A DNA stretch of 38,753 nt from an uncultured bacterium. Lineage in GTDB: Bacteria > Verrucomicrobiota > Kiritimatiellia > PWTM01. A model generated the notes under the pieces. That model was not told the DNA's origin and did no database searches. It was given only the letters and a program-made list of their open reading frames with translations. The stretch is from assembly GCA_938010045.1 (NCBI GenBank), contig CALLFZ010000020.1:1-38753 (forward strand), in the 5' to 3' direction. The position numbers and the translations under genes are program-made. Positions 3,687 to 18,623 of this stretch are shown piece by piece (positions within the stretch are counted from its first letter, which is position 1; every line of letters begins with the position of its first letter).

Positions 3687-5135
3687 TTACTCCTGGGCCC
3701 ACACCGCATAGGCACCCACTTCGGCCAGCAAAGGACTCGCGACCGACGACCCCACCTTCACCCACAAACGGATCATCTCGATCGGTCGTTCGGCGCGCCA
3801 CAACCGGCGGGAGCCGATCGACTCGCCGGCCGCAAGGTCCACCCGTCCGGTCGGAGTCTCGGCCGCGATCGCCCAGCGGTCAATCCGCTGTCCGAGCTCG
3901 ATCGGCTCGCGCAAGTCGACCACCTGAATCCTGACAGGCCGGTCCCATGACAACACGAATTCCGCCTCTCGAACCTCGTCGTCCGTCGCCCAATATGTAT
4001 GCCGATCCCCGTCCGTCGCACGTGCCGGTCTATAGCGGGGGTCACCACCTCGCGTGTTGGAGGCCGAGAGAGCGGCCGTCGGAGCAAGATTCGTCGCGAA
4101 CAGAGCCTCGAGCCTTTGTCGAAATCCTACGAGAGAGGCGCGGTCCCGCTCGTGCACCCGCCCGCGGCGATCCGGCGGTATGTTCAACAACAGCGACGCG
4201 CCACGCCCGACCGACTTGAAGTAGAGATCCACCAACTGTTCGGGCGTTTTGACCTTCTCATCCTCCGACGCGTGATAGAACCATCCCGGCCGGATCGAGA
4301 CATCGCACTCCGCCGGCCACCAGCGCCGACCGTGCCGGTCGCCGTGCTCGAGCCGTCGTCGATCGGCGATCGCGCCGAATTCGCCGCCCTCGAACGTCGC
4401 CCAACACGGATCTCCGGCGATTCCATTCTCATTGCCAACCCATCGCACGTCGGGTCCGTTGAACATCACCGCCCCCGGCTGTAGTTCGCGTACGATCCGA
4501 CGGATGTCCTCCCAGCCGTAATAGGTCGCCCAGTCAATCTGACGCCGCTCGCGCGCGCCACCATAGTAGCCGGTACCACCGTTCGCGCCGTCGAACCAAA
4601 CCTCGAACAGCTCGCCATAGTTCGCCAACAGCTCCTTTAACTGGGCATGATAGTAGCGCACGTAGGCCGGCCGCCCGTACTCGGGGTGATTCCGATCCCA
4701 GGGCGAAAGATAAACCCCGAACTTCAGACCATGGCGTCGGCAGGCGTCCGCAAACTCCCGCACCATGTCGCCCTTGCCTCCTCGCCACGGACTGCGCCGG
4801 ACGCTGTGGTCCGTGTGCGCGCTCGGCCAGAGGCAAAAACCGTCGTGGTGTTTCGCGGTCAGGATTAGGCCGCGCAATCCACCTTCGACGAACGCGCGCG
4901 CGATGTCATCCGCATCGAAATCGGTGGGCAGAACGATGCTGGGATCCTCGTCTCCGTAGCCCCACTCTTTGTCCGTAAATGTGTTCACAGTGAAGTGCAC
5001 GAACCCATACAGTTCGAGTTCATGCCAGGCGAGTTGAGCGGGTGAGGGCAACGGCGGATACGGCGCCGGTGCCTCCACGGCCGCGGCCACCGCCGCGGTG
5101 GCAGTCGCGAACAGACAGGCGTGGAGCGGGTTCAT
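3687..5135 (-). CDS. Secreted alpha-L-fucosidase, glycoside hydrolase family 29
   Basis: It hydrolyses terminal alpha-L-fucose from glycans. The 482-residue product starts at ATG 5133-5135 with a Sec-type signal sequence (MNPLHACLFA then an Ala/Val-rich core to about residue 22), so it is periplasmic or exported. The GH29 barrel follows: FVHFTVNTFTDKEWGYGDED, LILTAKHHDGFCLWPS, KFGVYLSPWDRNHPEYG, and EVWFDGANGG, where Asp182 is the expected nucleophile. From about 355 to the end there is a beta-rich module (ALSASNTRGG, ATDGDRHTYWAT, VVDLREPIELGQRI) resembling an F5/8-type carbohydrate-binding domain, usual for this family. AAGG precedes the start. A longer upstream frame exists but has non-coding composition. 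Fucosidase genes are common in PVC bacteria that degrade sulfated fucans or mucins. Confidence 0.9.
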   Translation of the reverse strand: MNPLHACLFATATAAVAAAVEAPAPYPPLPSPAQLAWHELELYGFVHFTVNTFTDKEWGYGDEDPSIVLPTDFDADDIARAFVEGGLRGLILTAKHHDGFCLWPSAHTDHSVRRSPWRGGKGDMVREFADACRRHGLKFGVYLSPWDRNHPEYGRPAYVRYYHAQLKELLANYGELFEVWFDGANGGTGYYGGARERRQIDWATYYGWEDIRRIVRELQPGAVMFNGPDVRWVGNENGIAGDPCWATFEGGEFGAIADRRRLEHGDRHGRRWWPAECDVSIRPGWFYHASEDEKVKTPEQLVDLYFKSVGRGASLLLNIPPDRRGRVHERDRASLVGFRQRLEALFATNLAPTAALSASNTRGGDPRYRPARATDGDRHTYWATDDEVREAEFVLSWDRPVRIQVVDLREPIELGQRIDRWAIAAETPTGRVDLAAGESIGSRRLWRAERPIEMIRLWVKVGSSVASPLLAEVGAYAVWAQE

Positions 5136-5724
5136 GACCTTCAGTCTAGACGCCGGCGTGTCCTTCGCCAAACGGCCACGACCGCCCCACGTTTCAGCAG
5201 CGCAGCATGACAGCGAGAGGGCGACGATCCGAAGAGATGTTCGAAGATGGTCATGACGACGTCGCTCGTGTGAACCGCGCTGCCCACGCTGTGCCGATCG
5301 CAGCCCTCGTCCAGCGGCGGAGGTAGCCGCGGATGGCGATGGTCCGCCACCGGATTCAATCCCCAGCGCGATTGCCGCCCGTTCACCGCAAGTGGCCGGC
5401 GGGTGAGATCGTGGCGGGGACCGTGTGTCCGGCAACGCTCAAAGGTCGCCGCTCTTGGGGACTTTCCCCAGCCACCGGGATCATCGGCCGCAACTTCCGA
5501 ATTTCGCCGTGGGGGAACCTCGGCCTCAGTTGTGGATCGCCAGTCCGATCTAGGTCATTGATTCAGCCCGTGTGGCGTGGCAACGGCTCGGACTCGGTTT
5601 GAATCCGATGCCCGTCGTGCGTGGGCAGGTCGATCTGCCGGCTTGCGAGGCGCAGCTCAGAGAGGGTGCTTCGCCCTCGCTGTGCGGTGCATGTTTCATT
5701 CGGCGCCGCGCTCCGGGCAAAGCA
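5136..5724. other. Noncoding interval between fucosidase and tRNA-Pro
   Basis: About 590 bases. Several short open frames cross it but none has a recognisable product or a convincing start. The fucosidase promoter should lie in the first 200 bases; I could not find a clear -35/-10 pair. No repeat or RNA gene was seen apart from the tRNA at its right edge. Confidence 0.5.
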
Positions 5725-5801
5725 TGGTCGGGGCGGTGGGATTTGAACCCACGACTCACAGCTCCCAAAGCTGTCGCGCTACCGGGCTGCGCCACGCCCC
5801 G
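5725..5801 (-). tRNA. tRNA-Pro (anticodon TGG), CCA encoded
   Basis: Reading the minus strand gives a complete cloverleaf: acceptor CGGGGCG/CGCCCCG, D stem GCGC/GCGC with loop AGCCCGGTA, anticodon stem ACAGC/GCTGT with loop TTTGGGA (anticodon TGG), five-base variable loop, T stem GTGGG/CCCAC with loop TTCAAAT. The discriminator base is A and the 3' CCA is encoded, giving 77 nt in all. Confidence 0.97.
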
Positions 5802-7025: not shown

Positions 7026-7442
7026 CTACGGCACCGGCAGTTGGCGCACGGTGGCGACCGCCTCATAGCGGCCACTTCGGTCGCGCACGATGATGTAGTT
7101 ATTGCCTTCCGCTTCGCCGTTGCGCTCGTAGATCGCCGTCAGACCTCCGCTCGCCCGGATGCGCCCGAGGGCGGGGCTAGAGACGGACCACGTCAGCGGG
7201 AGGATCACGGGCGGCCAGGTGGTCACCTCGTTCGTGCTGATCCCCCCAATCGCAAGATTGGAAACGGAGTTCACCACGGCCATGAACACGACCGTCTCCG
7301 CTTCGGCCGTCAGATTGGTTGAGGATGGCACAATCTCGAGCACACGATCGTAGGATTCGACCGTCTCGCAACCGCTAAGCGTCCACCACAACATACCGCC
7401 CGCCAGCGCGGAGGCCGCCACCACCCACCATGGATTTCGCAT
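7026..7442 (-). CDS. Predicted lipoprotein of 138 residues, last gene of the pilus-like operon
   Basis: No family is recognised. The start MRNPWWVVAASALAGGMLWW leads into LSGC, a good lipobox with the lipidated Cys at position 25, so the mature protein should be anchored in a membrane facing the periplasm. The remainder is beta-rich and reads like a single Ig-like or Big-type domain: it includes LTWSVSSPALGRI, LTAIYERNGEAEGNNYIIV and RYEAVATVRQL, a pattern of Ig-like folds in bacterial envelope proteins. I chose ATG 7440-7442 because it gives a normal signal sequence and has GAGGAT upstream; earlier ATGs at 7466 and 7487 would overlap the previous gene. Its place just after the second PilX-like gene suggests it supports pilus or pseudopilus assembly. 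Confidence 0.7.
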   Translation of the reverse strand: MRNPWWVVAASALAGGMLWWTLSGCETVESYDRVLEIVPSSTNLTAEAETVVFMAVVNSVSNLAIGGISTNEVTTWPPVILPLTWSVSSPALGRIRASGGLTAIYERNGEAEGNNYIIVRDRSGRYEAVATVRQLPVP

Positions 7443-7471
7443 CTCGCCAACATCCTCACCTGCCATGCGGT

Positions 7472-8785
7472 TCACAATTCGCGCCATCGCCTCGGCTGCA
7501 GACGCACCGCGGGGTTGGTCTGCAAGCCCGGCGGCATCGTGACCGGCAGGACATTCCGATTGTAGTAGATCGCGACGCTCTGTGAAAGGTCGGCGTAGTT
7601 GCCTGCGTAACACAGCCCATGCAGCACGACCGACTGCGCCGTATCGAGAACACCGCCGGCATAGATAAAACCGGAGGCTTGGGCCGCCTGCTTCATATCG
7701 ATCGTGCCCGGCGTGATCAGCGCCGCGCGAGTGGACACAATCCCGCTCTGTTTCAACTCGATGCGGTTGCGCGCAAAGACCACCGCATTGCTCCCCACCC
7801 TAGTGGATTGACCCATCCAGAATCGGTCGCCGCAGATCACGGTCACGCCCGGACCGATCTCGCAGGATTGCTTGATCTCGAACGTGCCCCGCACCACCAG
7901 CACTCCGCCGGGAGGAGTGCTGGTCAGCCTCCGTGTCTGGTACAAAGTTGCGCTCCCGTTCCAAAAGTTGTTACTCCCACCGAGATCCACGTTTCCATTG
8001 AAGTTGAGGTTGGACGAATGCCGGACCGCCGCCTGCGCCAGCATGGATTCATACCAGCTCCAGTCAATGGCCGGCACGGTCGGCCGGACCACGTAGTACG
8101 GATTTGCGGGACTATTGAAGGGATAGGACCCACCGTAAATGGTGGATGAATTGCGCAGCGAGATCGAGCCACCAATGAACGCCTGATCGTAGATGACGGC
8201 GCTCTGGCTCATGGAGAGACTGCCTTCACAGAACAGCGTCTCAAAAATCGCCGCTGACTGGGACATCGTCACATCGCCGCCGCTGTACACGTCGCCGTAG
8301 ATGGCCACGCTTTGTGCCAGCCGAATTCCGCCCGAGCCGGCGAGAAGAGCAAAGTCATCCCAGTAATCAAACGTCTCCAACACAAACTCCTGAGCAAGGC
8401 GCCGACTCTGACGGGTGTACAGATTCGTGCCCAGCGCGTGCACATAGTACACGTTGCCTGTCCGGGTCACGTTTGCGGCGCCGATCGTCAGCCCGTTCGT
8501 GAACGCGACGCCCCCGGGTGAGCTGCGAAACGAAGCGTCTGTGTACAGCCTTGTGCGCGCGACCGCCAAAGCCGATTCGGCGCTCCAAAAACATTGCAGC
8601 AATTGTTGCCGCCGAACCGCCTCTGTTCTTGCAGTTCCCGAGGCTGTCAACAGACCTGCGCCGATCAGTGTGATGATGACAGTCATGCCCATCACCAGCG
8701 CGAGTGACGCGCCGCGCTTCGACCGGCGAGAACCACGAGGGGATATTCCGCGAAACGACCATCTCGCCCAACGGTTGGTTTTCAT
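7472..8785 (-). CDS. PilX/GspK-like minor pseudopilin with SQS-repeat beta-solenoid (paralog 2)
   Basis: The protein has 437 residues. After a basic leader it has SKRGASLALVMGMTVIITLI, a single hydrophobic segment like the N-terminus of PilX-type minor pilins, then a helix with TEAVRRQQLLQCFWSAESAL. The rest is dominated by short repeats containing SQS, KQS or QS: LAQSVAIYGDVYSGGD, VTMSQSAAIFETLFCEGS, LSMSQSAVIYDQAFIGGS, with a period of 18 residues. Later copies include IKQSCEIGPGV, MGQSTRVGSN, LKQSGIV and LSQSVAIYYN. Such regular turns predict a beta-solenoid, comparable to bactofilins. A non-repetitive insert (NPYYVVRPTVPAIDWSWYES) is shared with the paralog just upstream, which ends 2 bases before this ATG (8783-8785; GGAGGGAG upstream). 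It probably sits at a pilus tip or displays a structural domain. Confidence 0.75.
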   Translation of the reverse strand: MKTNRWARWSFRGISPRGSRRSKRGASLALVMGMTVIITLIGAGLLTASGTARTEAVRRQQLLQCFWSAESALAVARTRLYTDASFRSSPGGVAFTNGLTIGAANVTRTGNVYYVHALGTNLYTRQSRRLAQEFVLETFDYWDDFALLAGSGGIRLAQSVAIYGDVYSGGDVTMSQSAAIFETLFCEGSLSMSQSAVIYDQAFIGGSISLRNSSTIYGGSYPFNSPANPYYVVRPTVPAIDWSWYESMLAQAAVRHSSNLNFNGNVDLGGSNNFWNGSATLYQTRRLTSTPPGGVLVVRGTFEIKQSCEIGPGVTVICGDRFWMGQSTRVGSNAVVFARNRIELKQSGIVSTRAALITPGTIDMKQAAQASGFIYAGGVLDTAQSVVLHGLCYAGNYADLSQSVAIYYNRNVLPVTMPPGLQTNPAVRLQPRRWREL

Positions 8786-8787
8786 AG

Positions 8788-10068
8788 CTAGAGCTCCCTC
8801 CACTGCGAGGGGTTGATGACCACCGCATTTGTCGTGAGAAGCCCGGGCGGTAGGGTGATGGGCAACAAGGCGGGATGATATGTGATCGTGACACTCTGGG
8901 ACAACGTCACCCTCACACCGGCGAACGCAAGACCGGAAATCGCCGTGCTTTGAGAAATGTCCAACAGGGTTCCGGCGTAGATGAAGCCCGAAGCTTGCGC
9001 CGCCTGTTTCATCTCGATCGTGCCGGGCGTGATCAGCGAACAACGGCTGGCAACAATACCGCTCTGTTTCATCTCGATCCGGTGACCGGCGTAAATGAGG
9101 GAGTTTGGGGCGACTTTTGTGCTCTGGCCCATCGCGAACAGCGAGCCGCAGATGATCGTTACGTTGCTGCCCACCTGCGCAGACTGTTGCAGTGTGAGCG
9201 AATCCCGAACAACGAGGATTCCGCCCGGAGGATCGCTATAGATGCGCCGGTACGAGCCCAGCGACGCCGATCCCCGAACGAACCACACCCGGTTGGAAAG
9301 ATTGATGTCCTGCGCGAAATTGAGGCCCGAATCCTGCACCGCCGCCTGCGCCAGCATGTTCTGATACCAGCTCCAATCGATCTGTGGAACAGTGGGCTGG
9401 ACAACGTAGTAGGGATTGGCCGGGCTGCTGAATGGATACGAGCCTCCATAGATCACGGAGGACTGTCCTAAGCTGATCGTTCCCCCTACAAACGCTTCGT
9501 CATAGATCGCCGCACTCTGGCTCATCGTCAGATCACCGCGACAGTAGAGGCTCTCGAAAATCGCCGCGGCCTGCGACATCCGGAGACTACCCTCGCAAAA
9601 CACATCGCCGTAAATCGCGATGCTCTGACTCAAATCGCCGCCGTTTGCGCCCACGAAAAGGGCAAAATCATCCCAGTAGTCGTACTGCCGCACCATGAAT
9701 GTCTGTCGGACGCGGCGGCTCAATCGCGAATACAGGTTGCTGCCCCGGGCCGTGACGGTGAATACCTGCCCGCTTCGCACCACGTGCGCATCGGCCACGA
9801 ACGGTCCGTTCGTCAACGCCACAGGCTCCGGCTGCTCCCGATAGGCGGAGTCGTGATAGAGCCTCTCTCTCACCACCGCGAGCGCCGATTCCGCACCCCA
9901 AAAACACTGCAGCGATTGCTGGCGACGAACCGCCTCGGTCCGCCCTGCGAGCGCCGAGGCCAGCAATCCGGAGCCCACGAGGGTCAGCACCACGAGAATC
10001 CCCACCACCAACGGCAACGCCGCTCCTCGACGGCCGCCCCGGGATCCGTTCGCCGTCGTCAAGTTCAT
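8788..10068 (-). CDS. PilX/GspK-like minor pseudopilin with SQS-repeat beta-solenoid (paralog 1)
   Basis: The protein has 426 residues and the same architecture as its downstream neighbour: basic leader, hydrophobic segment GAALPLVVGILVVLTLVG, helix TEAVRRQQSLQCFWGAESAL, then an 18-residue repeat (LSQSIAIYGDVFCEGS, LRMSQAAAIFESLYCRGD, LTMSQSAAIYDEAFVGGT, ISLGQSSVIYGGSYPF). It continues with the NPYYVVQPTVPQIDWSWYQN insert and more SQS/KQS turns to a C-terminus ending WREL, as in paralog 2. There is no Glu at the fifth position after the leader glycine, which fits PilX or GspK rather than a major pilin. The start (10066-10068) has GGAGGG 8 bases upstream. The pair clearly arose by tandem duplication. 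Family placement rests on the N-terminus and on the operon; the solenoid is a prediction from periodicity. Confidence 0.75.
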   Translation of the reverse strand: MNLTTANGSRGGRRGAALPLVVGILVVLTLVGSGLLASALAGRTEAVRRQQSLQCFWGAESALAVVRERLYHDSAYREQPEPVALTNGPFVADAHVVRSGQVFTVTARGSNLYSRLSRRVRQTFMVRQYDYWDDFALFVGANGGDLSQSIAIYGDVFCEGSLRMSQAAAIFESLYCRGDLTMSQSAAIYDEAFVGGTISLGQSSVIYGGSYPFSSPANPYYVVQPTVPQIDWSWYQNMLAQAAVQDSGLNFAQDINLSNRVWFVRGSASLGSYRRIYSDPPGGILVVRDSLTLQQSAQVGSNVTIICGSLFAMGQSTKVAPNSLIYAGHRIEMKQSGIVASRCSLITPGTIEMKQAAQASGFIYAGTLLDISQSTAISGLAFAGVRVTLSQSVTITYHPALLPITLPPGLLTTNAVVINPSQWREL

Positions 10069-10084: not shown

Positions 10085-10561
10085 TTAGTTCCGCATTGTG
10101 ATCGAGTTCGAGAGCGCGAGCGTCTGGTTCGCGCCGGTCAGGACTGACAGAGCCACGAGCAGGCGGCTGCCATCCAACGCCACCTGGAACGACACTAGGC
10201 GGTCGTTGATCAGCGTCTGCTCGTCCCCGCTCGCCGACATATCCGGATCATAGATGAGATCACCGGTCCGATTGTCGTAGAAACGGCAACGCTTCGGACG
10301 AAACGAGTTGGTCGCGAAGATCACCGAGCTGGACGCTACCGTGACCTCGGACGGCGAGGCGCTTTGCGCTGTGCGCTGCAGCAAATCCAACGCGTAGCCC
10401 ATGTCCCGCTGCAGATTGATCGACTCGTTGCTGCGGCGCATCGCGGCGTACACGAAATAGAGCACCGATCCCATCGCGATCGCGAGAATGGCTGCCGCCA
10501 CCGCGGTGGCCAGCAGCTCCACCACGGTAAAACCGGCTGTCGCTGGGTGGCGCCCGTTCAT
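10085..10561 (-). CDS. PilW/GspJ-like minor pseudopilin
   Basis: The protein has 158 residues. It has a class III prepilin leader ending in Gly, with the mature start FTVVELLATAVAAAILAIA: Phe1, the conserved Glu5, and a hydrophobic helix used for membrane anchoring and filament packing. After an amphipathic stretch with MRRSNESINLQRDMGYALD, the C-terminal half is beta-rich (VIFATNSFRPKRCRFYDNRTG). Length and order after a PilV-like gene fit PilW or GspJ. The start ATG 10559-10561 overlaps the upstream stop as ATGA, so the two are translationally coupled. It should be processed by a prepilin peptidase, which is not encoded in this window. Confidence 0.78.
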   Translation of the reverse strand: MNGRHPATAGFTVVELLATAVAAAILAIAMGSVLYFVYAAMRRSNESINLQRDMGYALDLLQRTAQSASPSEVTVASSSVIFATNSFRPKRCRFYDNRTGDLIYDPDMSASGDEQTLINDRLVSFQVALDGSRLLVALSVLTGANQTLALSNSITMRN

Positions 10562-11034
10562 GGCCCGAGGTACGCCCATAACGTCACGCTGTTCGGCTCA
10601 TTGCGGCGGTATTTCACAACAACCCGCGCCTCCACGACATCATAGGACGGGGCGCCGCCGTCCACGTCCACGAACCGCACCGTGGTGGTGATCGGATAAT
10701 CATAACCAAGCATCCGAATGACCTCTCCGGGATCGGTCAGGGAGTGCTGCCAACCGCTGGACGTGGGGGTCAGGTAGTACAGCGTGTAAGAATCCGATGG
10801 CGGTTTGATCGCGTCGAACCCGGCCGCCCTCAGTTCCTCGAGGCGACTGTGCGCGAATTCGAGCGCGGTCCGCTGATTGCGTGCCACGGCGACCATGCCA
10901 TTGGAGAGCGAGACAAAGGCTCCCGCCGCAATCACGATGATCGCCAGCAGTGCACTGGCCCAGAGAACCTCGACCAATGTCGCGCCGCGCCGCCACGCGC
11001 GGCCAATCTCACGGCGTTGAGGAGCTGCTCTCAT
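10558..11034 (-). CDS. PilV/GspI-like minor pseudopilin
   Basis: The protein has 158 residues. The leader RAAPQRREIGRAWRRG is followed by ATLVEVLWASALLAIIVIAA, a class III prepilin helix with Glu5 and Ala in place of Phe1. The downstream helix includes RNQRTALEFAHSRLEELRAAGF, the pattern of PilV and GspI proteins. The C-terminal part is a beta-rich globule (TTVRFVDVDGGAPSYDVVEA, VVVKYRRNEPNSVTLWAYL). I chose ATG 11032-11034 because GGAGG lies 8 bases upstream; it overlaps the preceding lipoprotein gene by 26 bases. The next gene (PilW-like) starts inside its stop codon. Together they would form part of the tip or initiation complex of the filament. Confidence 0.78.
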   Translation of the reverse strand: MRAAPQRREIGRAWRRGATLVEVLWASALLAIIVIAAGAFVSLSNGMVAVARNQRTALEFAHSRLEELRAAGFDAIKPPSDSYTLYYLTPTSSGWQHSLTDPGEVIRMLGYDYPITTTVRFVDVDGGAPSYDVVEARVVVKYRRNEPNSVTLWAYLGP

Positions 11035-11557
11035 GTAACCGCACCTCCACGACCGTTCCATCCGGAGACAGTAGCACCACGCGATCTGTCTCAACGTTCT
11101 GCACGACATAACCGCCTACCCGCTCTCCCGCGCCCACCGTCCGACCTCCGAGGATCGCGAGTGGCTCGCGCGGATGCCGAACGATTCCCTGCAGCTTTGG
11201 TGGCCCCGCGTCCGGAATCGTCGTAGGGTCGGGGGACACGGCCGCCCCCCCTCCCGTGACCGGCGGGGTCGGCTCGGGCTCGGGGATCGGCTCAGGTTCG
11301 GGGGGCGGCGGTCTCAAAAATCTCAATTCGCCCAACATGGCGAGCACGTCCTGCGAAGCTTCGATGGCGGCGCGGCGGCGTTGCAGCTCCTGGATACCTG
11401 TCATGACGCCATTCGCGACAGAGCGATGAGCGGCGAACGGATCCGTCTGAGCGCGCCGGCAGCCCGCCGCAGCCAGGCAAGCCAACATCACACCGCCCCA
11501 CCAGTGGGAACCACTCGGCAGCCACCGTCGCCGACGCATGAAGTGTCGCGTGCTCAT
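11009..11557 (-). CDS. PilP-like lipoprotein
   Basis: The protein has 182 residues. The signal sequence ends in LAAAGC (Cys33), a lipobox. A helical region (about 45-80) is followed by a Pro-rich linker (PPPPEPEPIPEPEPTPP) and a compact C-terminal domain: LQGIVRHPREPLAILGGRTV, GERVGGYVVQNVETDRVVLL, GTVVEVRLHE. This last block, a small beta domain starting with a hydrophobic-GI pattern and ending VxVxL, is the arrangement of PilP and the GspC homology region, which link the inner-membrane alignment complex to the secretin. It follows the PilO-like gene with an ATGA overlap, as pilP follows pilO in type IV pilus operons. The sequence match itself is weak; synteny carries much of the call. Confidence 0.65.
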   Translation of the reverse strand: MSTRHFMRRRRWLPSGSHWWGGVMLACLAAAGCRRAQTDPFAAHRSVANGVMTGIQELQRRRAAIEASQDVLAMLGELRFLRPPPPEPEPIPEPEPTPPVTGGGAAVSPDPTTIPDAGPPKLQGIVRHPREPLAILGGRTVGAGERVGGYVVQNVETDRVVLLSPDGTVVEVRLHESSSSTP

Positions 11558-12069
11558 TTTGGATTGAACGCGTACCGTATCACGTACTCTGCCTGATACA
11601 GCGGATCGGCGATCGCCTGCTGAACACTGCAGACGAACTGGTCCACGGTCAGCAGGTTCTCCGGCCGCTCGACCTCTGCGGCGAACCGCACCATCGCTGC
11701 AAACAACGCATCTCCCCGAACCGTCGCCTGCAGCGCCCCGCCCCCTCCCTTCGCCTCTTCAATCTGGAGCGAGTTGACGGTGAACTTGTGACGCTGCGCC
11801 GCCTCGGTCAGCGCGACGCTCAGCCGCTCGCGTGCTTCGGCGCTGGATCGTGATAATCGGAATCCGTTCGAAATGGTTCCGACCGCCACCTCCAGCGTCG
11901 TTCGAAGCTCGGGCATGACCTCGAAAAAGGTCCGTCGCCACTGGATGTCCTGGCGGCACCGCGCACAGTAGAGCGCTCCCCCCGTGCCGGCAAGCACAGC
12001 CGCGGCCAACGGCGCCACTCGCCACGCCCACACATGCCACCGCGTTCGAATAAAGATGCTTGTATCCAT
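11554..12069 (-). CDS. PilO/GspM-like inner-membrane protein
   Basis: The protein has 171 residues. A short cytoplasmic start (MDTSIFIRTRWHVWAWR) is followed by one transmembrane helix (about 18-35), a helical linker with RTTLEVAVGTISNGFRLSRS, and a C-terminal alpha/beta domain (HKFTVNSLQIEEAKGGG, ALQATVRGDALFAAMVRFAA, ending in VIRYAFNP). This bitopic arrangement with a ferredoxin-like periplasmic domain is characteristic of PilO and GspM. It lies between the PilN-like and PilP-like genes, as expected. Two Cys residues (CARC) sit just after the membrane helix, an unusual touch that could form a disulfide or bind metal. Function is inferred mainly from topology and gene order. Confidence 0.65.
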   Translation of the reverse strand: MDTSIFIRTRWHVWAWRVAPLAAAVLAGTGGALYCARCRQDIQWRRTFFEVMPELRTTLEVAVGTISNGFRLSRSSAEARERLSVALTEAAQRHKFTVNSLQIEEAKGGGGALQATVRGDALFAAMVRFAAEVERPENLLTVDQFVCSVQQAIADPLYQAEYVIRYAFNPK

Positions 12070-12072
12070 ACC

Positions 12073-12699
12073 TCAAGACGACTCCGGCCCGCCCCCCCCG
12101 TCGCGCAACACGCCACCAAAGCTCAGCACATACTCAAACCCCGTTGGCCCACGCGCTCGTCGCGTTCCAATCAGCGAAGGACTGCTTCGCAATCGCGTCT
12201 TCAACACCGGATTCGAGTTCCACGCCGCCATGAGATCGATCTCTCGATCGGAGCGACGGTTATACATCGTCGCCGGCACAGCCACCTCGAATGAAATCGC
12301 CTTCTTTTCGCGGTCGAACGAGAACATCGTCAGGCGCATACCGGGCAGCATCGGCTCGGTGAGGGCCAGCAACAACGGCGCGAGATCCGCGCGCCTCTGC
12401 AAGGTGCGGTCGATGGCCGACAGTTGCGCCTGACAGTGCGTCAACCCCAAACGCACATCCTCCGCGAACTCCGTCAGCCGGCCGAACTGCGGATACTGAC
12501 GCCGGAACCACCGCTCCTCTGCGTCAAGAATTCGCTCCTCTCTCAGAAGCCGAAGCACGGCCTGCGTTTGCTGCGCGGCGATCACCACCAACACGACTCC
12601 GCTGGCGGCCAGATAGGCGAGCATGCCGTAGAACAACCGAACCCGCCGCGCGCGCGGCGGTACGCGGTCACGCAACAAATTGATCCTAACGATCGGCAT
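12073..12699 (-). CDS. PilN-like inner-membrane protein
   Basis: The protein has 208 residues. The first residues, MPIVRINLLRDRVPPRARRV, resemble the INLLP motif of PilN that docks into PilM. One transmembrane helix follows (about 23-42), then a coiled region with LRLLREERILDAEERWFRRQ and a periplasmic domain with LPGMRLTMFSFDREKKAISF and a C-terminal strand FEYVLSFGGV. The ATG at 12697-12699 lies 14 bases inside the end of the PilM-like gene; an earlier start at 12726 would place extra residues before the INLL motif and is unlikely. The position after the PilM-like and before the PilO-like gene matches the standard pilM-N-O-P order. Confidence is good for the role, modest for the exact family. 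Confidence 0.72.
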   Translation of the reverse strand: MPIVRINLLRDRVPPRARRVRLFYGMLAYLAASGVVLVVIAAQQTQAVLRLLREERILDAEERWFRRQYPQFGRLTEFAEDVRLGLTHCQAQLSAIDRTLQRRADLAPLLLALTEPMLPGMRLTMFSFDREKKAISFEVAVPATMYNRRSDREIDLMAAWNSNPVLKTRLRSSPSLIGTRRARGPTGFEYVLSFGGVLRDGGGGPESS

Positions 12700-13636
12700 C
12701 GTCGAGCCCCCGCAACGCCAAACCAAGGCACACCGTCATGCGGCGGGCCGCGTCCGCATTGGCCAGCAGAGACCGCGCCGGGCCCGCACACCGAACCGCG
12801 GGATCGGTCAAGGGTATCCACTCTTCCACCGTCACCTCCAACCGCCGTGCCAGCAGCGCGCGCAGCTCCTCATCGTCCGAGCCCTCGCCGGTGATCAGGA
12901 CGCGGTGAGCCGGCGGTATGCCGGCCTTCGTCTCCGCGTACTCCTGCTGACTGGCCATGTTCTCCGAAAGATAAGAACCGATCGCGGCGGTCTCGGCGGA
13001 CTCGAACACCACGGTACGGGCAAAGGCCCGCCCCTCGCGCGTGACCTGCACCAGGTGAGCCTGCCGACGCGTGAGGCCCACCAGAAACACAACCGGTTCA
13101 ACCGCCGGCTCGCGCTTCAGCCAAAGCCAGAGGTTGGCCAGCGCCAAAGGCGCGGCATCCAGAATGACCGGCACAACCCCGGCCATCTGCAAGCGTCGGC
13201 AATAGTCATCCACCGCGGACCGGGGCGCGGCCGCCAAAATCCCCTCGCACACTCCGCCGGATCGCCCAGTTCCGTTCAACCCGACGAGATGACAGTCCAG
13301 CACAAGATCCTTCGAGGGGATTTGGAGAGTTTCTTCGGCTTCCAAGCGAACGGCCGATCGAACCTGCTCCTCCGTCAGTCCTTCATAGCGGAAGTAGTGC
13401 AGCAGGACTGCACCACTATTCAGCGAGGTGCAGACCAAACGGCTCGGTATTCGCGCCCTCCGCCACAACCGTCGGATCGCGGGGCGGGCATCGCCCTCCC
13501 CCTCCCCTTCCGCCCAGGGCTCGAACCCGCCACGGGTCACCAGCAGTCGGCCACGGGAGGCCTCTACGCAGGCAGCGGCGACGCCGCTCTCTGTGATCTC
13601 CAGTCCCGTAATGACTTCGCGCCATACCATCGCCAC
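12686..13636 (-). CDS. PilM/GspL-like cytoplasmic actin-fold protein
   Basis: The protein has 316 residues. The start VITGLEITESGVAAACVEAS reads like the first nucleotide-binding strand pair of the actin-like fold of PilM. Later features are LLHYFRYEGLTEEQVRSAVR with AEETLQIPSKDLVLD, near the usual PilM block (E...E..IP....V.D), then an ILAAAPRSAVDDYCRRLQMA segment as in PilM domain 1B, and a C-terminal LITGEGSDDEELRALLARRL, corresponding to the second phosphate loop region. It would sit in the cytoplasm and bind the N-terminus of the PilN-like protein, linking the motor to the periplasmic alignment complex. Either of two close ATGs (13636 or 13630) could be the start. The gene overlaps the PilN-like gene by 14 bases. 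Confidence 0.75.
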   Translation of the reverse strand: MAMVWREVITGLEITESGVAAACVEASRGRLLVTRGGFEPWAEGEGEGDARPAIRRLWRRARIPSRLVCTSLNSGAVLLHYFRYEGLTEEQVRSAVRLEAEETLQIPSKDLVLDCHLVGLNGTGRSGGVCEGILAAAPRSAVDDYCRRLQMAGVVPVILDAAPLALANLWLWLKREPAVEPVVFLVGLTRRQAHLVQVTREGRAFARTVVFESAETAAIGSYLSENMASQQEYAETKAGIPPAHRVLITGEGSDDEELRALLARRLEVTVEEWIPLTDPAVRCAGPARSLLANADAARRMTVCLGLALRGLDDADR

Positions 13637-13661: not shown

Positions 13662-14081
13662 TCAGAGGCCCGAACGTCTGAAATGACCGTCCGAATCGAG
13701 CGTTACCTCGATGCCCGCGACAGCACCTGTCGTGCCAGAACACCGTAGCAGAAACGAATGCTGTTCCACCGCGAGGATTTCGTAGTTGTCCGACGTGAAG
13801 AACTGTCCCTCAAGGTCCACCGGCCCGATGCCCGGCACGACGAGGGCTGGACCGGCCGTGATCGGTTCTCCGTTCGCGGTCCGGGAATAGTCCCTCGTTT
13901 CCGCGTACATGGCCCGCCACGCATTGCGGATGGTCCCAAGCCCTGCCTCGGCCTCTGTGATCATGGCACGTTTGCGATTCACCTCGATCATCGGCACCGC
14001 CACCGCCGCGAGGATCGCGACGATCACCGCCACCACCATCAACTCCACCAGAGTGAATCCGCGCTCGCCGGGGCGATTCAT
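13662..14081 (-). CDS. Class III prepilin (pilin paralog 1)
   Basis: The protein has 139 residues. The leader MNRPGERG is followed by FTLVELMVVAVIVAILAAVA, the full class III prepilin signature with Phe1 and Glu5 after the cleaved Gly. The globular part includes TEAEAGLGTIRNAWRAMYAE, DLEGQFFTSDNYEILAVEQ and a C-terminus with LLRCSGTTGAVAGIEVTLD. It is related throughout to the two pilins upstream. It has one Cys only, so no internal disulfide loop of the PilA type is possible. I chose ATG 14079-14081 for its short leader; 14091-14093 is the alternative. A strong hairpin lies between this gene and pilin paralog 2. It is probably a lower-abundance or alternative major pilin. Confidence 0.85.
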   Translation of the reverse strand: MNRPGERGFTLVELMVVAVIVAILAAVAVPMIEVNRKRAMITEAEAGLGTIRNAWRAMYAETRDYSRTANGEPITAGPALVVPGIGPVDLEGQFFTSDNYEILAVEQHSFLLRCSGTTGAVAGIEVTLDSDGHFRRSGL

Positions 14082-14122
14082 GTGATCAATCATCACGCAT
14101 CGAGGTAACCCCCACAAGCGAG

Positions 14123-14158
14123 GCGGGCGGTGTGGGCCCGCGGCCCACCACCGCCCGC
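14123..14158 (-). repeat. Long GC-rich hairpin between two pilin genes
   Basis: The two arms, GCGGGCGGTGTGGGCC (14123-14138) and GGCCCACCACCGCCCGC (14142-14158), pair over 16 base pairs with one bulged base and a 3-base loop. In the minus-strand transcript it sits 33 bases after the stop of pilin paralog 2 and ahead of paralog 1. There is no U-tract, so a partial terminator, RNA-stability element or processing site is more likely than a complete terminator. Confidence 0.65.
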
Positions 14159-14190
14159 ACAATTCATGGATGGGTCAACCGCGGACCCGA

Positions 14191-14613
14191 TCACAGACCG
14201 GTGCGATTGAAGACGCCATCTTGGTTCAGCGTGATCGTGATCCCCGCCACATCGCCCGTGCTGCCTTGGCACCGGAGCGTGTAGGTATCGGTACCGATCG
14301 CAGCGATCGTGTAATCCGAGGCCCTGAAGTACCGACCCTCAAGGTCCGACGCGGTCACGCCCGGAATGTTCGTCACCGAAGTGTTGGCCGAGATCGTGTT
14401 GCCGTTCGGGTCGCGGTTGTATGCCTTTGTCTCGGCATACATCGCGCGCAACGCCGTGCGCACCGTGCCCAGCGCGGCCTCCGCCTCGGTCGCCATCGCC
14501 CGCCGCTTGTTGCCGCTCATCAGCGGAATGGCTACCGCCGCGAGGATCGCGACGATCACCGCCACCACCATCAGTTCCACGAGCGTGAACCCGCTCTTGC
14601 TCTTTACCTTCAT
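14191..14613 (-). CDS. Class III prepilin (pilin paralog 2)
   Basis: The protein has 140 residues. The leader MKVKSKSG is followed by FTLVELMVVAVIVAILAAVA, with Phe1 and Glu5 of a class III prepilin. The globular domain shows TEAEAALGTVRTALRAMYAE, DLEGRYFRASDYTIAAIGT, TYTLRCQGSTGDVAGITITL and ends RTGL. The ATG 14611-14613 has GGAGATCAGGG upstream, the best ribosome binding site among the three pilins, which together with its simple composition makes it a candidate for the main structural subunit. It contains a single Cys. The following hairpin could stabilise its message relative to the genes downstream. A prepilin peptidase and an assembly ATPase must come from elsewhere in the genome. Confidence 0.88.
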   Translation of the reverse strand: MKVKSKSGFTLVELMVVAVIVAILAAVAIPLMSGNKRRAMATEAEAALGTVRTALRAMYAETKAYNRDPNGNTISANTSVTNIPGVTASDLEGRYFRASDYTIAAIGTDTYTLRCQGSTGDVAGITITLNQDGVFNRTGL

Positions 14614-14778
14614 CCCTGATCTCCTCATTCTTCAGTCCGCCCGGCCCTCGCCGGACGGTTCATTCTTCCTGTTCACACCATCCGCGACGACACCCGCCGC
14701 CGCGCCCCGGCTCCCGCCGGTGTTCTCCACCCTCCGCCGTCCGGCCGCACCCGCGAACCGCAACGACTCCCCACATCC

Positions 14779-15222
14779 TCAAATCCCTGTCGTCATCAAC
14801 GCTCCCGTCTGGTCGAGCGTAATCGTCACGCCCACCGTTTCGCCTGTGCTTCCGACGCACTGGAGCACGTACGCATCTCTCGAAATCGTCTGAATCGTGT
14901 AATCCGCCTCGCGGAAAAATTTGCCCGCCAAGTCGCCCGCACTGACGCCGGGAATGACCGTCAACGGATCCCCGGCCTCGAGAGCGTTTCCTCCCGGATC
15001 TCGAGAGTAGTCCCGTGTCTCCGCATACATCGCGCGCAGACACGAACGCGCCATACCGAGAGCCGCCTGAGCCTCGGTGACCATCGCCCTCTTCTTGCTT
15101 CCACTCATCATCGGGATGGCCACCGAGGCCAAGACCGCCACGATCACCGCCACCACCATCAATTCCACGAGCGTGAAGCCCCGGCGGCCACGAACCACCA
15201 TCGCTTGTCGAGCTGTATTCAT
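14779..15222 (-). CDS. Class III prepilin (pilin paralog 3), first gene of the operon
   Basis: The protein has 147 residues. A longer leader (MNTARQAMVVRGRRG) precedes FTLVELMVVAVIVAVLASVA, the class III prepilin signature. The globular part is homologous to the two following pilins (TEAQAALGMARSCLRAMYAE, DLAGKFFREADYTIQTISR, YVLQCVGSTGETVGVTITL) but has two Cys residues instead of one. The ATG is at 15220-15222; an in-frame ATG at 15201 would give a shorter leader. A consensus sigma-54 promoter lies 20 bases upstream, predicting a transcript start only about 9 bases before the ATG at 15222, which makes the internal ATG worth considering. It is the promoter-proximal gene of the whole pilus-like operon. 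Confidence 0.85.
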   Translation of the reverse strand: MNTARQAMVVRGRRGFTLVELMVVAVIVAVLASVAIPMMSGSKKRAMVTEAQAALGMARSCLRAMYAETRDYSRDPGGNALEAGDPLTVIPGVSAGDLAGKFFREADYTIQTISRDAYVLQCVGSTGETVGVTITLDQTGALMTTGI

Positions 15223-15757
15223 GCTCTCGTAGGGCTTTAGGAGCAACCACCGTGCCAATCCGTCGCACGCATTCAGCGTCCATTTCAACACGCTGCGCAG
15301 AAAACAAATCCCGGAATCAAAGCACTTCGTTTGTCAAAATTGAAAAACCACAATCGAAAATGTCGAAGTCTCGGCATCGCGCTGGGCGTGACTCGGCCAC
15401 TGGCCGGGATCGAAATCATTGACTTAAAACCGCCGCCTCTCGCGCTACAAAACGGACTTGATACCTATAACGAAACACTAATGGCGGGGTTCGTCAAGCC
15501 ACACCGCGCCACAGCCCCAGCCCCGAACGTTCCTGGCCATGATCTGACCCATGCGGGAGCCCAATACGGAGGGGGTCTCCCCCGGTTCCCGGCGTTCGCT
15601 CCGCCAGACCAAGGATGCATCCGACGACACTCACCGCTGATCTGCGTTCGCCCGCGGTGCGCGCCCGCCGTCCGCCTGTTCGCTTTTTCAGCCCGAGCCG
15701 TTGCCGTTGCTGGGGCCCATCCCTGTCTCAATCGCTTTCCATCGACACAGCGTCGGT
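15223..15757. other. Intergenic region upstream of the pilin operon
   Basis: About 535 bases with no credible gene; an Arg-rich frame at 15465-15761 on the minus strand has no start signal or homology. Two patches are clearly AT-richer than the surroundings (about 15300-15370 and 15411-15485). The sigma-54 promoter lies at the left end. TGTC occurs at 15332 and 15361, at the usual distance for enhancer sites, but this alone is weak evidence for a PilR-like activator. Confidence 0.55.
15242..15257 (-). promoter_or_regulatory. Sigma-54 (RpoN) promoter of the pilin operon
   Basis: Read on the minus strand the sequence is TGGCACGGTGGTTGCT. This matches the -24/-12 consensus TGGCACR-N4-TTGCW at every defined position. 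The -12 C is at 15243, which places the transcript start near 15231, just before the pilin ATG at 15222. Pilin genes are sigma-54 dependent in several well-studied bacteria, usually with a PilR-type activator. No such activator gene is in the window. Confidence 0.8.
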
Positions 15758-17161
15758 TCAAGCGCGCCGTCTCGGTGGAGGGACGTGAACCGGATGCCCT
15801 TCCAACACATGGGCGGCCTCCATCCAGATCTCTCCATGCGTTGGATGGGGGTGAATCGTCCGCCCCACTTCTTCGACCGTCAACTCGGCGCGAATCGCGA
15901 GCGCCGCCTCGGAAATGAGATCAGTCGCATGCGGCCCCACGGCCGCGGCGCCCACGAGCCGCCCGCTGTCCGCTTCGGCAATCCATTTCACAAAACCCGC
16001 CGTTTCGCCGCCTGCCAGCGCCCGGCCAAGGGCGGAAAACGGGAAACGCCCGACTTTCACCCGCATGTTCTGGCGGCCGGCCTCCGCCTCCGTGAGGCCA
16101 ACCAGCGCGACCTCCGGCTGAGTAAAAATGACGCCGGGCACCAGCGTCTCGTTCGGCCGTGGCCGCCGCCCCACCGCATCCGCCGCTGCGATGAGGCCCT
16201 GTGACGTCGCCGCATGCGCGAGTTGCGGTCCCCCGTTCACGTCACCGATCGCGTAGATCCCGGGCACGCGGGTGCGGTTCCACGCGTCGGCGCGCAGATA
16301 CCCCCGCTCGTCCGGCCGCAATCCCGCGCGCTCGGGACACAGTCCCTCCGTCATCGGGCGCCGGCCAACCGCGACCAGCAAACAGTCGCCCTCGAACGCC
16401 GCATCGCCAACTCGAACCCGTACCGCCGAATCGCCGGTCTCGACCGCCTCAGCGGGATGTCCGCACAGCACGCGGATGCCCAACTCGTGCTCCATCGACC
16501 GCCGAACCTCGGCGCGCACATCCGCATCGAGCAACAACAAAATGTCGTCGAGCAATTCAACGACGGTCACCTCCGATCCGAGCATGGCCGCCAGACACGC
16601 CAGCTCACAGCCAATGTAGCCGCCGCCGAGCACGATGAGCCGTTCCGGACGATGAGGAAGGTCGAGAAATGCACGGCTGTCGACCACGCGCGGATGCCGC
16701 GGCAGAAAGGCCGGCATGGTCGAGGTGGAGCCGGTCGCAACGATCACACGCCGCGCGTGCAGCCACCGCGTCCCCTCCGCCCCGCTCACAGCCAATCGCT
16801 CTCGCGTGACGAACGACGCTTCGCCTTCGATCTGCTCGACGCCATTGGATTTCAGGAGCGACCTCACGCCCGCGGCGAGGCGCGCCACCGTGCGGTTCTT
16901 GTGCGCGAGGAGGCCTGCGTAGTCCACGCTGAGACCCTCGGTCGTCAGGCCCATGGCCGACGCATGTCCGGCGGCTCGCGCCAACCCTGCTGCCGCGATC
17001 ATCGCCTTCGTGGGAATGCAGCCCCAGTTCAAACACGTGCCGCCCCACGCCTCACGCTCGACGATCGCCGTGTTCGCCCCGAACTGCGCTGCGCGGATCG
17101 CCGCCGGATACCCACCCGGACCCGCGCCGATCACCACCACATCAAACGAATCCGTGCCCAT
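15758..17161 (-). CDS. lpdA: Dihydrolipoyl dehydrogenase (E3)
   Basis: It reoxidises the dihydrolipoyl groups of the E2 component with NAD+, using FAD. The protein has 467 residues. It shows the FAD-binding VVVIGAGPGG (Gly12-Gly17), the redox-active disulfide in GGTCLNWGCIPTK (Cys43 and Cys48), the NAD-binding LIVLGGGYIGCE, the second FAD motif YAIGDVNGGPQLAH, and the C-terminal HPHPTHGE with the catalytic His-Glu pair. The start ATG 17159-17161 has GGGAGG upstream and follows the E2 gene by 30 bases. The length is normal. It is the last gene of the cluster E1-E2-E3, and most likely works with that complex. Confidence 0.95.
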   Translation of the reverse strand: MGTDSFDVVVIGAGPGGYPAAIRAAQFGANTAIVEREAWGGTCLNWGCIPTKAMIAAAGLARAAGHASAMGLTTEGLSVDYAGLLAHKNRTVARLAAGVRSLLKSNGVEQIEGEASFVTRERLAVSGAEGTRWLHARRVIVATGSTSTMPAFLPRHPRVVDSRAFLDLPHRPERLIVLGGGYIGCELACLAAMLGSEVTVVELLDDILLLLDADVRAEVRRSMEHELGIRVLCGHPAEAVETGDSAVRVRVGDAAFEGDCLLVAVGRRPMTEGLCPERAGLRPDERGYLRADAWNRTRVPGIYAIGDVNGGPQLAHAATSQGLIAAADAVGRRPRPNETLVPGVIFTQPEVALVGLTEAEAGRQNMRVKVGRFPFSALGRALAGGETAGFVKWIAEADSGRLVGAAAVGPHATDLISEAALAIRAELTVEEVGRTIHPHPTHGEIWMEAAHVLEGHPVHVPPPRRRA

Positions 17162-17191
17162 GCCACCGCCTCCCAACAACGGGTTGCGCCA

Positions 17192-18592
17192 TCACACCCA
17201 CGACCGCCACGCCGTCGGATCCTCGAGCCGCGCGCGGATCGCGTTCGCGAACCGAGCGGCCGTTGCGCCGTCCACCAGCCGATGATCCGCCGACAGCGTG
17301 ATCCGCATAATCTGACGCACCTCGATGCGCCCCGCCCGCACCCATGGCATCGGCCGCGTACTGGCGACCGCGAGAATCGCACCCTCGCCGGGGTTGATGA
17401 TCGCGGTAAACTGCTCCACGTCGAGCATACCCATGTTCGAGATCGTGAACGTGCCGCCCGTCATGTCGTCGGGCGTCAGTTTGCCGGCCCGCGCCGTCTC
17501 CACCAGCGCCGCAGCGCGCTCATGCAGCTCCAAGAACGAGAGTTCGTCCGCATTGCGGACCACCGGCACGACCAACCCGGACTCGAGCGCGACCGCGATA
17601 CCGAGATGCACGCGCGTCGACCGCCACACCTGCCGTCCATCGGTCCGGCTGTTCATGTCTGGACACTCGACCAGTGCCTGCACCACCGCCTCGGCGATGA
17701 AGTCCGTCACCGTGTATGGCGCCCCCTGGTTTTTGAGCTGCTGCCGGAACGCGAGCAGCTCCGTCATGTCCACCGGCACCGTGACAAAGAAATGCGGCGT
17801 GGTCGTGTAACTATGGGTGAGCCTCTGCGCGATCACCTGCCGCATGCGGCTCATCGTTTGAGGTCGCTCCGCGATGGCCCGTTGAACGTCCTCGACCCGG
17901 ATGCGGCCATTCTCGCCGGTGCCGCGCACGGTCAGGATGTCCACACCCTCGCGGCGCGCCAGCTCCTTGGCGGCCGGCGTGATGCGAAGCGAGGAATACC
18001 CCTTCGCCTCCAGATAGGCCTCAACGTCCCGCTCGGTAATGCGCCCGCCCGGCCCGGTGCCGGGCACGCGGGAGGGATCAATCGCGGCCTCGCGCGCGCG
18101 GCGCTGCGCGCGCGGGCTGATCTTTAGTTCCGTCGGCGTCGCCACTGTCGCTGCGGCGGCCGGCACAGCGGCGGGGGGCGGAGCAATCGGCGCGGTCGGC
18201 GCCGGCGCGGCGGGTACGGCCACCGTGGAGGGGGCCGGCCGGCTCGGTGCCGGCGACGGCGTGCTCGCCGCGGACGGGGTCGCCGGCGCGGCGGCCGCTG
18301 CCGCCGGCCGCGGCGCGACCGCGGGCGGCGGCGCCACCTCGGGGATCGGTTCCCCGGGCTGTCCGATGTAGGCCACTGTCGCCTGCACCGGCACTGTCGC
18401 GCCCTCCTTCGCGACAATCTTCAGAAGCGTCCCCTCGTAAAAACTTTCAACCTCCATGTTCGCCTTGTCGGTCTCGATCTCGAACAGGATGTCCCCCTTC
18501 GCAACCGGGTCGCCCTCTCGCTTGTGCCACCGAAGAATCGTGCACTCCTCGGTGAACTGCCCCGGTTTCGGCATGGCAATCGCATGCGGCAT
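17192..18592 (-). CDS. pdhC: Dihydrolipoamide acetyltransferase (E2) with two E3-binding domains
   Basis: It transfers the acyl group from lipoate to CoA and forms the core of the dehydrogenase complex. The protein has 466 residues. An N-terminal lipoyl domain (1-80) has the lipoylated Lys43 in IETDKANMEVE. An Ala/Pro linker (about 85-155) leads to two peripheral-subunit-binding domains in a row, 157-194 (SPRAQRRAREAAID, GTGPGGRITERDV) and 203-240 (TPAAKELARREGVD, GTGENGRIRVEDV). The catalytic acetyltransferase domain follows from about 245, with the active-site His437 and Asp441 in SADHRLVDG. Most E2 proteins have one such binding domain. The gene sits between E1 and E3 on the same strand. 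Pyruvate is the likely substrate of the complex, as discussed for E1, but the branched-chain alternative cannot be excluded. Confidence 0.92.
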   Translation of the reverse strand: MPHAIAMPKPGQFTEECTILRWHKREGDPVAKGDILFEIETDKANMEVESFYEGTLLKIVAKEGATVPVQATVAYIGQPGEPIPEVAPPPAVAPRPAAAAAAPATPSAASTPSPAPSRPAPSTVAVPAAPAPTAPIAPPPAAVPAAAATVATPTELKISPRAQRRAREAAIDPSRVPGTGPGGRITERDVEAYLEAKGYSSLRITPAAKELARREGVDILTVRGTGENGRIRVEDVQRAIAERPQTMSRMRQVIAQRLTHSYTTTPHFFVTVPVDMTELLAFRQQLKNQGAPYTVTDFIAEAVVQALVECPDMNSRTDGRQVWRSTRVHLGIAVALESGLVVPVVRNADELSFLELHERAAALVETARAGKLTPDDMTGGTFTISNMGMLDVEQFTAIINPGEGAILAVASTRPMPWVRAGRIEVRQIMRITLSADHRLVDGATAARFANAIRARLEDPTAWRSWV

Positions 18593-18623
18593 GGCTCGAT
18601 CTCCTTGCGTGTTCGCCCCGCGG

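Follow-up and report, generated by a model that had tools for sequence, protein, structure and literature searches.

Tandem candidate tip minor pilins of the ComZ type in a pilus operon of an uncultured Kiritimatiellia bacterium

What two adjacent, repeat-rich pilins contribute to a pilus is the question raised by a locus of an uncultured bacterium of the Kiritimatiellia. The window, the whole stretch of DNA analyzed here (38,753 nucleotides of contig CALLFZ010000020.1, assembly GCA_938010045.1), encodes both proteins, here called PilX1 and PilX2 after their position among the operon genes (Table 1). The first-pass annotation had read them as tandem PilX-like proteins with a pilin-type N-terminal helix, and that reading holds: they are two adjacent minus-strand open reading frames, the products are 59% identical over their full length in pairwise alignment, and each begins with a class III prepilin start and helix. 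The leader is short, basic, and ends in glycine (cleavage at RRG^AALPLV in PilX1 and KRG^ASLALV in PilX2), glutamate is absent at +5 after the cleavage site, and the hydrophobic N-terminal helix of both copies contains FWxAESAL, a PilX/GspK-like signature.

Table 1. Features of the pilus operon and of the two candidate tip pilins in the window
Feature	Position	Strand	Basis
Three PilA/GspG-like major prepilins	13662-14162, 14191-14628, 14779-15291	-	N_methyl E 3.6e-8 (middle one)
PilM	12686..13636	-	NCBIfam pilM E 1.8e-16
PilN-like inner-membrane protein	12073..12726	-	Position; weak GspL_C E 0.046
PilO-like inner-membrane protein	11554..12069	-	Position between PilN- and PilP-like genes; no family match
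PilP/GspC-like protein	11009..11557	-	Weak NCBIfam GspC E 0.06; position
PilV/GspI-like minor pilin	10558..11109	-	Weak NCBIfam GspI 0.005, PilV 0.026
PilW/GspJ-like minor pilin	10085..10579	-	Weak NCBIfam GspJ E 0.009; gene order
PilX1, candidate ComZ-type tip minor pilin, upstream copy, 426 aa	8788..10068	-	ORF, AF2 model, Foldseek best = ComZ 6QVI
PilX1 leader, cleavage G15^A16 without Glu at +5, N-terminal helix (residues 1-82)	9823..10068	-	Sequence and AF2
PilX1 pilin beta-strands 83-87, 90-99, 102-111, 117-129 (residues 83-137)	9658..9822	-	AF2
PilX1 solenoid first half, 4 turns of 18 residues (138-212)	9433..9657	-	Repeat analysis, AF2
PilX1 connector NPYYVV...IDWSWY, helix 233-242 (213-260)	9289..9432	-	Alignment, AF2
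PilX1 solenoid second half, 18- to 20-residue turns (261-396)	8881..9288	-	Repeat analysis, AF2
PilX1 tail and last pilin-like strand 415-425, ending WREL (397-426)	8791..8880	-	AF2
PilX2, second candidate ComZ-type tip minor pilin, 437 aa	7472..8785	-	ORF, AF2 model, Foldseek
PilX2 leader, helix 28-82, and four pilin strands 92-139	8342..8785	-	AF2 model
PilX2 solenoid, residues 149-407, including connector 223-271 (helix 243-254)	7565..8341	-	AF2
PilX2 tail and last pilin-like strand 426-436	7475..7564	-	AF2
Small lipoprotein, lipobox LSGC, Big/Ig-like body by eye, last gene of operon	7026..7451	-	Kept in relatives; no Pfam match

The pair lies near the end of a pilA-M-N-O-P-V-W operon, directly after pilV-pilW and ahead of a final lipoprotein gene, and three PilA/GspG-like prepilin genes stand in tandem upstream of pilM. 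The PilV, PilW, PilN, PilO, and PilP assignments are weak, drawn from low-scoring matches and gene order, and those names are putative; the order pilM-N-O-P-V-W-X1-X2-lipoprotein is identical in a relative (L023). The genome also encodes several further type IV filament ATPases and secretins, and PilX1 and PilX2 could instead be type II secretion pseudopilins of the GspK kind rather than pilus tip proteins. NCBIfam GspK is indeed the best N-terminal match (E of 0.001 for PilX2; 18.6 bits against an equivalog cutoff of 130, N-terminus only), the neighboring genes give GspI- and GspJ-like matches, and GspK shares the N-terminal helix, a domain inserted in the pilin fold and, by analogy, a role at the tip. 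The domain inserted in GspK is alpha-helical (PMC6561018), however, and at another strand position, unlike the solenoid of the window proteins. Moreover, the operon has PilM and a pilus gene order, and a separate GspK-like protein that lacks solenoid character is encoded elsewhere, near a secretin (G000:C38). We regard a type II secretion role as improbable.

How the rest of each protein folds was predicted with AlphaFold2 (AF2) from four-sequence alignments of PilX1, PilX2, and the L023 pair. Mean pLDDT was 82.8 and 82.7 for the two models and mostly above 90 in the solenoid; confidence was low for the leader and parts of the helix (residues 1 to 43 of PilX1, in which helices are predicted at 19-31, 40-72, and 74-78) and was also lower for the last strand. 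Both models run from the pilin helix through four pilin strands into a solenoid of about three short strands per 18 to 20 residues and end in a last pilin-like strand. The beta-solenoid is inserted ahead of this last strand, which presumably packs in the pilin sheet. The early proposal that a pilin or pseudopilin is joined to a beta-solenoid is thus borne out by structure prediction for both copies, but the solenoid is not the continuous run first described. Four turns are followed by a helix-bearing connector of 48 residues and then by about seven turns, and the connector is the shared insert noticed at the outset, with NPYYVV and WSWY in both proteins. A tryptophan near the C-terminus is conserved in all relatives.

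The repeat is also less uniform than it first appeared. A period of 18 residues is correct for the first half, in which the corner motifs of PilX1 fall at 147, 165, 183, and 201 in exact 18-residue steps, but the second half is mostly built on 20 residues, with spacings of 20, 20, 20, 18, and 18 from position 294 to 390. Autocorrelation computed half by half was 0.28 to 0.32 at lag 18 and 0.17 to 0.22 at lag 20, and solenoid-wide identity at lag 18 was 0.142 and 0.146 in the two proteins, compared to a 95% maximum of about 0.12 in shuffled sequences. The initial count was of over ten SQS or KQS turns in each protein. About ten corner motifs are present when written as [SGKQA]Q[SA], but only five turns in each protein carry a literal SQS or KQS. 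Nevertheless, each contains nine QS pairs, where shuffled sequences would give 2.9 and 2.0, and across ten proteins of the window family the ten glutamine columns held a mean of 1.5 residue types versus 2.6 over all solenoid columns (P of ~0.005). We infer that the corner motif is structural, a ladder of side chains at a corner of the solenoid, and not itself a binding site.

The structure nearest to both models is ComZ of Thermus thermophilus. Foldseek against the PDB ranked ComZ (6QVI) first for each (E of 4.6e-8 and 3.4e-6), with alignments spanning about 540 to 560 columns, but overall TM-scores were low (0.25 to 0.31) and the rmsd was 14 to 16 Å, and therefore the arrangement of domains is not closely matched. 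Similarity in sequence is faint. A single-sequence PDB search with PilX1 found no match, while a family profile search of PDB sequences placed ComZ first of six matches, weakly (E of 0.045), with the helix and the junction of pilin and solenoid aligned collinearly. In ComZ, the solenoid follows the penultimate pilin strand and precedes the last one, its ends are joined by a loop and a short helix, and its closest solenoid relative is FfIBP (PMC6561018). Compared with the models, this published layout matches in detail even though the global TM-score is low: a pilin-like domain, a large triangular beta-solenoid of FfIBP-like fold, a connector corresponding to the ComZ loop and helix that link the solenoid ends, a final pilin strand beyond the solenoid, and adjoining minor-pilin genes. 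The window proteins differ in having about 410 mature residues versus 534 in the ComZ crystal chain, in occurring as two tandem copies, and in having a regular glutamine-ladder repeat and few lysines, whereas ComZ is a known DNA-binding tip protein. We conclude that insertion of a solenoid into the pilin fold is the published ComZ architecture, a relationship missed by the first-pass annotation. PilX1 and PilX2 are a known kind of modular pilin on an under-annotated branch, not a new filament or lattice.

A lattice had been suggested, and the repeat had been likened to bactofilins or other polymerizing solenoids. A regular repeat with a near-invariant glutamine ladder might indeed indicate a polymerizing solenoid that builds a surface lattice, and bactofilins share a beta-solenoid of short repeats. 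The Pfam Bactofilin profile (PF04519), however, gave a weak match to one of 11 window-family members (E of 0.082), no bactofilin was among the 50 Foldseek matches listed for each model, bactofilins lack a pilin module, and true bactofilins are encoded elsewhere in the genome. Moreover, the connector links the solenoid ends, and beyond the solenoid the chain runs back into a pilin-like strand. ComZ shares this arrangement and is not known to polymerize via its solenoid. We therefore reject a bactofilin relationship and consider a polymerizing lattice very improbable. Matches to LpxD and hexapeptide proteins (E of 0.002 to 0.09) were likewise set aside as repeat resemblance, as the LpxD fold match reached only an E of 0.5 or worse.

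Following ComZ in Foldseek were many DUF3494 ice-binding proteins (TMt as high as 0.50; best E of 3e-4 to 4e-4), a fold that is likewise the nearest one reported for the ComZ solenoid (PMC6561018). DUF3494 and the ice-binding-like adhesive domains (PF20597) resemble the window proteins in predicted solenoid fold and in a loop or helix along the solenoid, but the window solenoid sits inside a pilin and has no family match at the sequence level, the DUF3494 Pfam profile matching no member of the window family. Ice binding is not implied. Two further Pfam families were matched below their gathering cutoffs: DUF7305 (PF23981) by PilX1 at 12.5 bits (cutoff, 27), with no match by PilX2 and 23.6 bits for a relative (L007), and PilX_N (PF14341) by PilX2 at 13.3 bits (cutoff, 25.5), with relatives reaching an E of 0.0017. 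Pilins of these families share with the pair the gene place after pilV-pilW, the length, a solenoid repeat, a C-terminal tryptophan strand, and recurrent tandem copies, but they carry QPN as the turn motif where the window proteins carry QS. Profile-profile alignment of the window family to DUF7305 PilX proteins covered only the pilin N-terminus (E of 4.8e-6), and thus homology between the solenoids rests on an intermediate from genome G049, the fold class, and gene position.

How widespread such pilins are can be judged from the class. DUF7305 proteins occur in 23 of 146 genomes, and those inspected are mostly pilins of about 400 to 440 amino acids directly after PilV and PilW. Some stand in tandem in other genera (L069, L070, and L071), and whole pilV-W-X cassettes are duplicated at L072 and in G049 (L083), where the operon order is that of the window. 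A scan of viral contigs found no relatives of the window proteins. In the literature collection searched, no paper was found naming DUF7305, combining a PilX N-terminus with a bactofilin, or treating tandem PilX tips.

Why two copies are kept bears on how the tip is built. Of the nine genomes in the family, five carry the PilX genes, and X1 and X2 form separate groups within the genus in a pilin-domain tree, from which the duplication is probably at least as old as the genus. PilX1 and PilX2 might be specialized partners in a two-headed heterodimeric tip, as the genes are adjacent in all five genomes and the tree separates them. Only seven positions, however, are fixed differences between X1 and X2, and they are scattered, which is little evidence for subfunctionalization. 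Moreover, the pilin and solenoid trees partly conflict in G006, where the solenoid tree suggests exchange between the copies, and the duplication of entire pilV-W-X cassettes in relatives fits alternative tips. A heterodimeric tip seems unlikely to us. As two PilX proteins share a single PilV and a single PilW, the simplest interpretation is that the copies serve as alternatives or are redundant.

We think it likely that PilX1 and PilX2 are ComZ-type tip minor pilins in which the solenoid is a ligand-binding head and that the two are little-diverged alternative or redundant copies. The pilin helix without Glu5 and the small pilin beta-sheet would anchor PilX in a tip complex beside the PilV- and PilW-like pilins, and the triangular two-half solenoid with its loop-helix connector would be the exposed head. 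Two copies of the same design, from a lineage-old duplication, would then compete for the single PilV/PilW pair. It has been argued, for ComZ (PMC6561018) and for modular pilins generally (PMC8179133), that a type IV filament accommodates large inserted domains most readily at its tip. The original suggestion that such a protein could cap a filament gains support, both from ComZ as the closest fold and from the gene place after pilV-pilW.

For the ligand of the head, two candidates can be weighed. One is DNA, such that the solenoid pilins would form the receptor tip of a competence pilus, bind extracellular DNA, and import it by retraction. DNA capture is favored by the ComZ precedent, in which the same architecture binds DNA, and the genome encodes a ComEC homolog and mature PilX2 is basic (pI 9.1, 27 arginines). 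ComZ, however, binds DNA through lysines, whereas each mature window protein has three, and the ComZ lysine contacts have no assignable counterparts. Moreover, the pI values of the solenoids (5.6 and 7.9) are not those of strongly basic domains, ComEC occurs also in bacteria without demonstrated competence, and the sole HHH_3 (ComEA-type) match is marginal, in a 411-amino-acid frame. We consider DNA capture plausible but on balance doubtful. Adhesion to a surface or to a polysaccharide or protein ranks above it and is, by analogy, somewhat the better supposition, given adhesive-domain relatives, no PilY1, and scarce lysines. In the class, 4 of 17 DUF7305 PilX proteins also match the Pfam putative ice-binding-like adhesive domain (best E of 1.4e-9), and a Bacillus protein described as collagen binding belongs to a predicted cluster of adhesin domains with the ice-binding fold (PMC9210967). 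No PilY1 tip adhesin was found in the genome.

Until now, discussion of the ComZ structure has treated it as that of an unusual competence pilin. The data here suggest that solenoid-headed tip pilins after pilV-pilW are widespread and often duplicated in the class, and thus the solenoid may be a general tip adhesin module where PilY1 is not found. The tandem pairing, the recurrence in the class, and the homogenized corner ladder are new. We speculate, and with little confidence, that two ComZ-type heads, either interchangeable or paired, stand at the tip in place of the PilY1 adhesin, their corner ladder being rewritten in concert in each lineage. Tandem copies that share one PilV/PilW pair offer a simple system in which to test swapping of pilus tips.

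The corner motif is specific to lineage yet repeated along each protein. It is QS in the window family, QPN takes its place repeatedly in several DUF7305-type pilins of the class, and the G049 relative (L083 6923-8107) has lysine or aspartate at most corresponding corners, often as KD. Within a lineage, the motif looks as if it had been rewritten in concert along each protein. The second copy in G003 (L018 1402-3036) is 545 amino acids long, its solenoid enlarged by extra 20-residue turns, with 13 QS motifs and six successive 20-residue spacings in one run.

The lipoprotein that ends the operon has counterparts in the corresponding position in G001, G002, and G049 (in the last at L083 8124-8804) and also at L023 8470-8988, and perhaps it is an outer membrane partner of the solenoid pilins. 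Directly upstream of the pilus operon (15758-20921, minus strand), three genes resemble by eye a pyruvate/2-oxoacid dehydrogenase complex, namely, dihydrolipoamide dehydrogenase, E2, and a fused E1. Finally, a protein that by eye is like a GH29 alpha-L-fucosidase (3687-5435, minus strand) adjoins tRNA-Pro (5725-5801).
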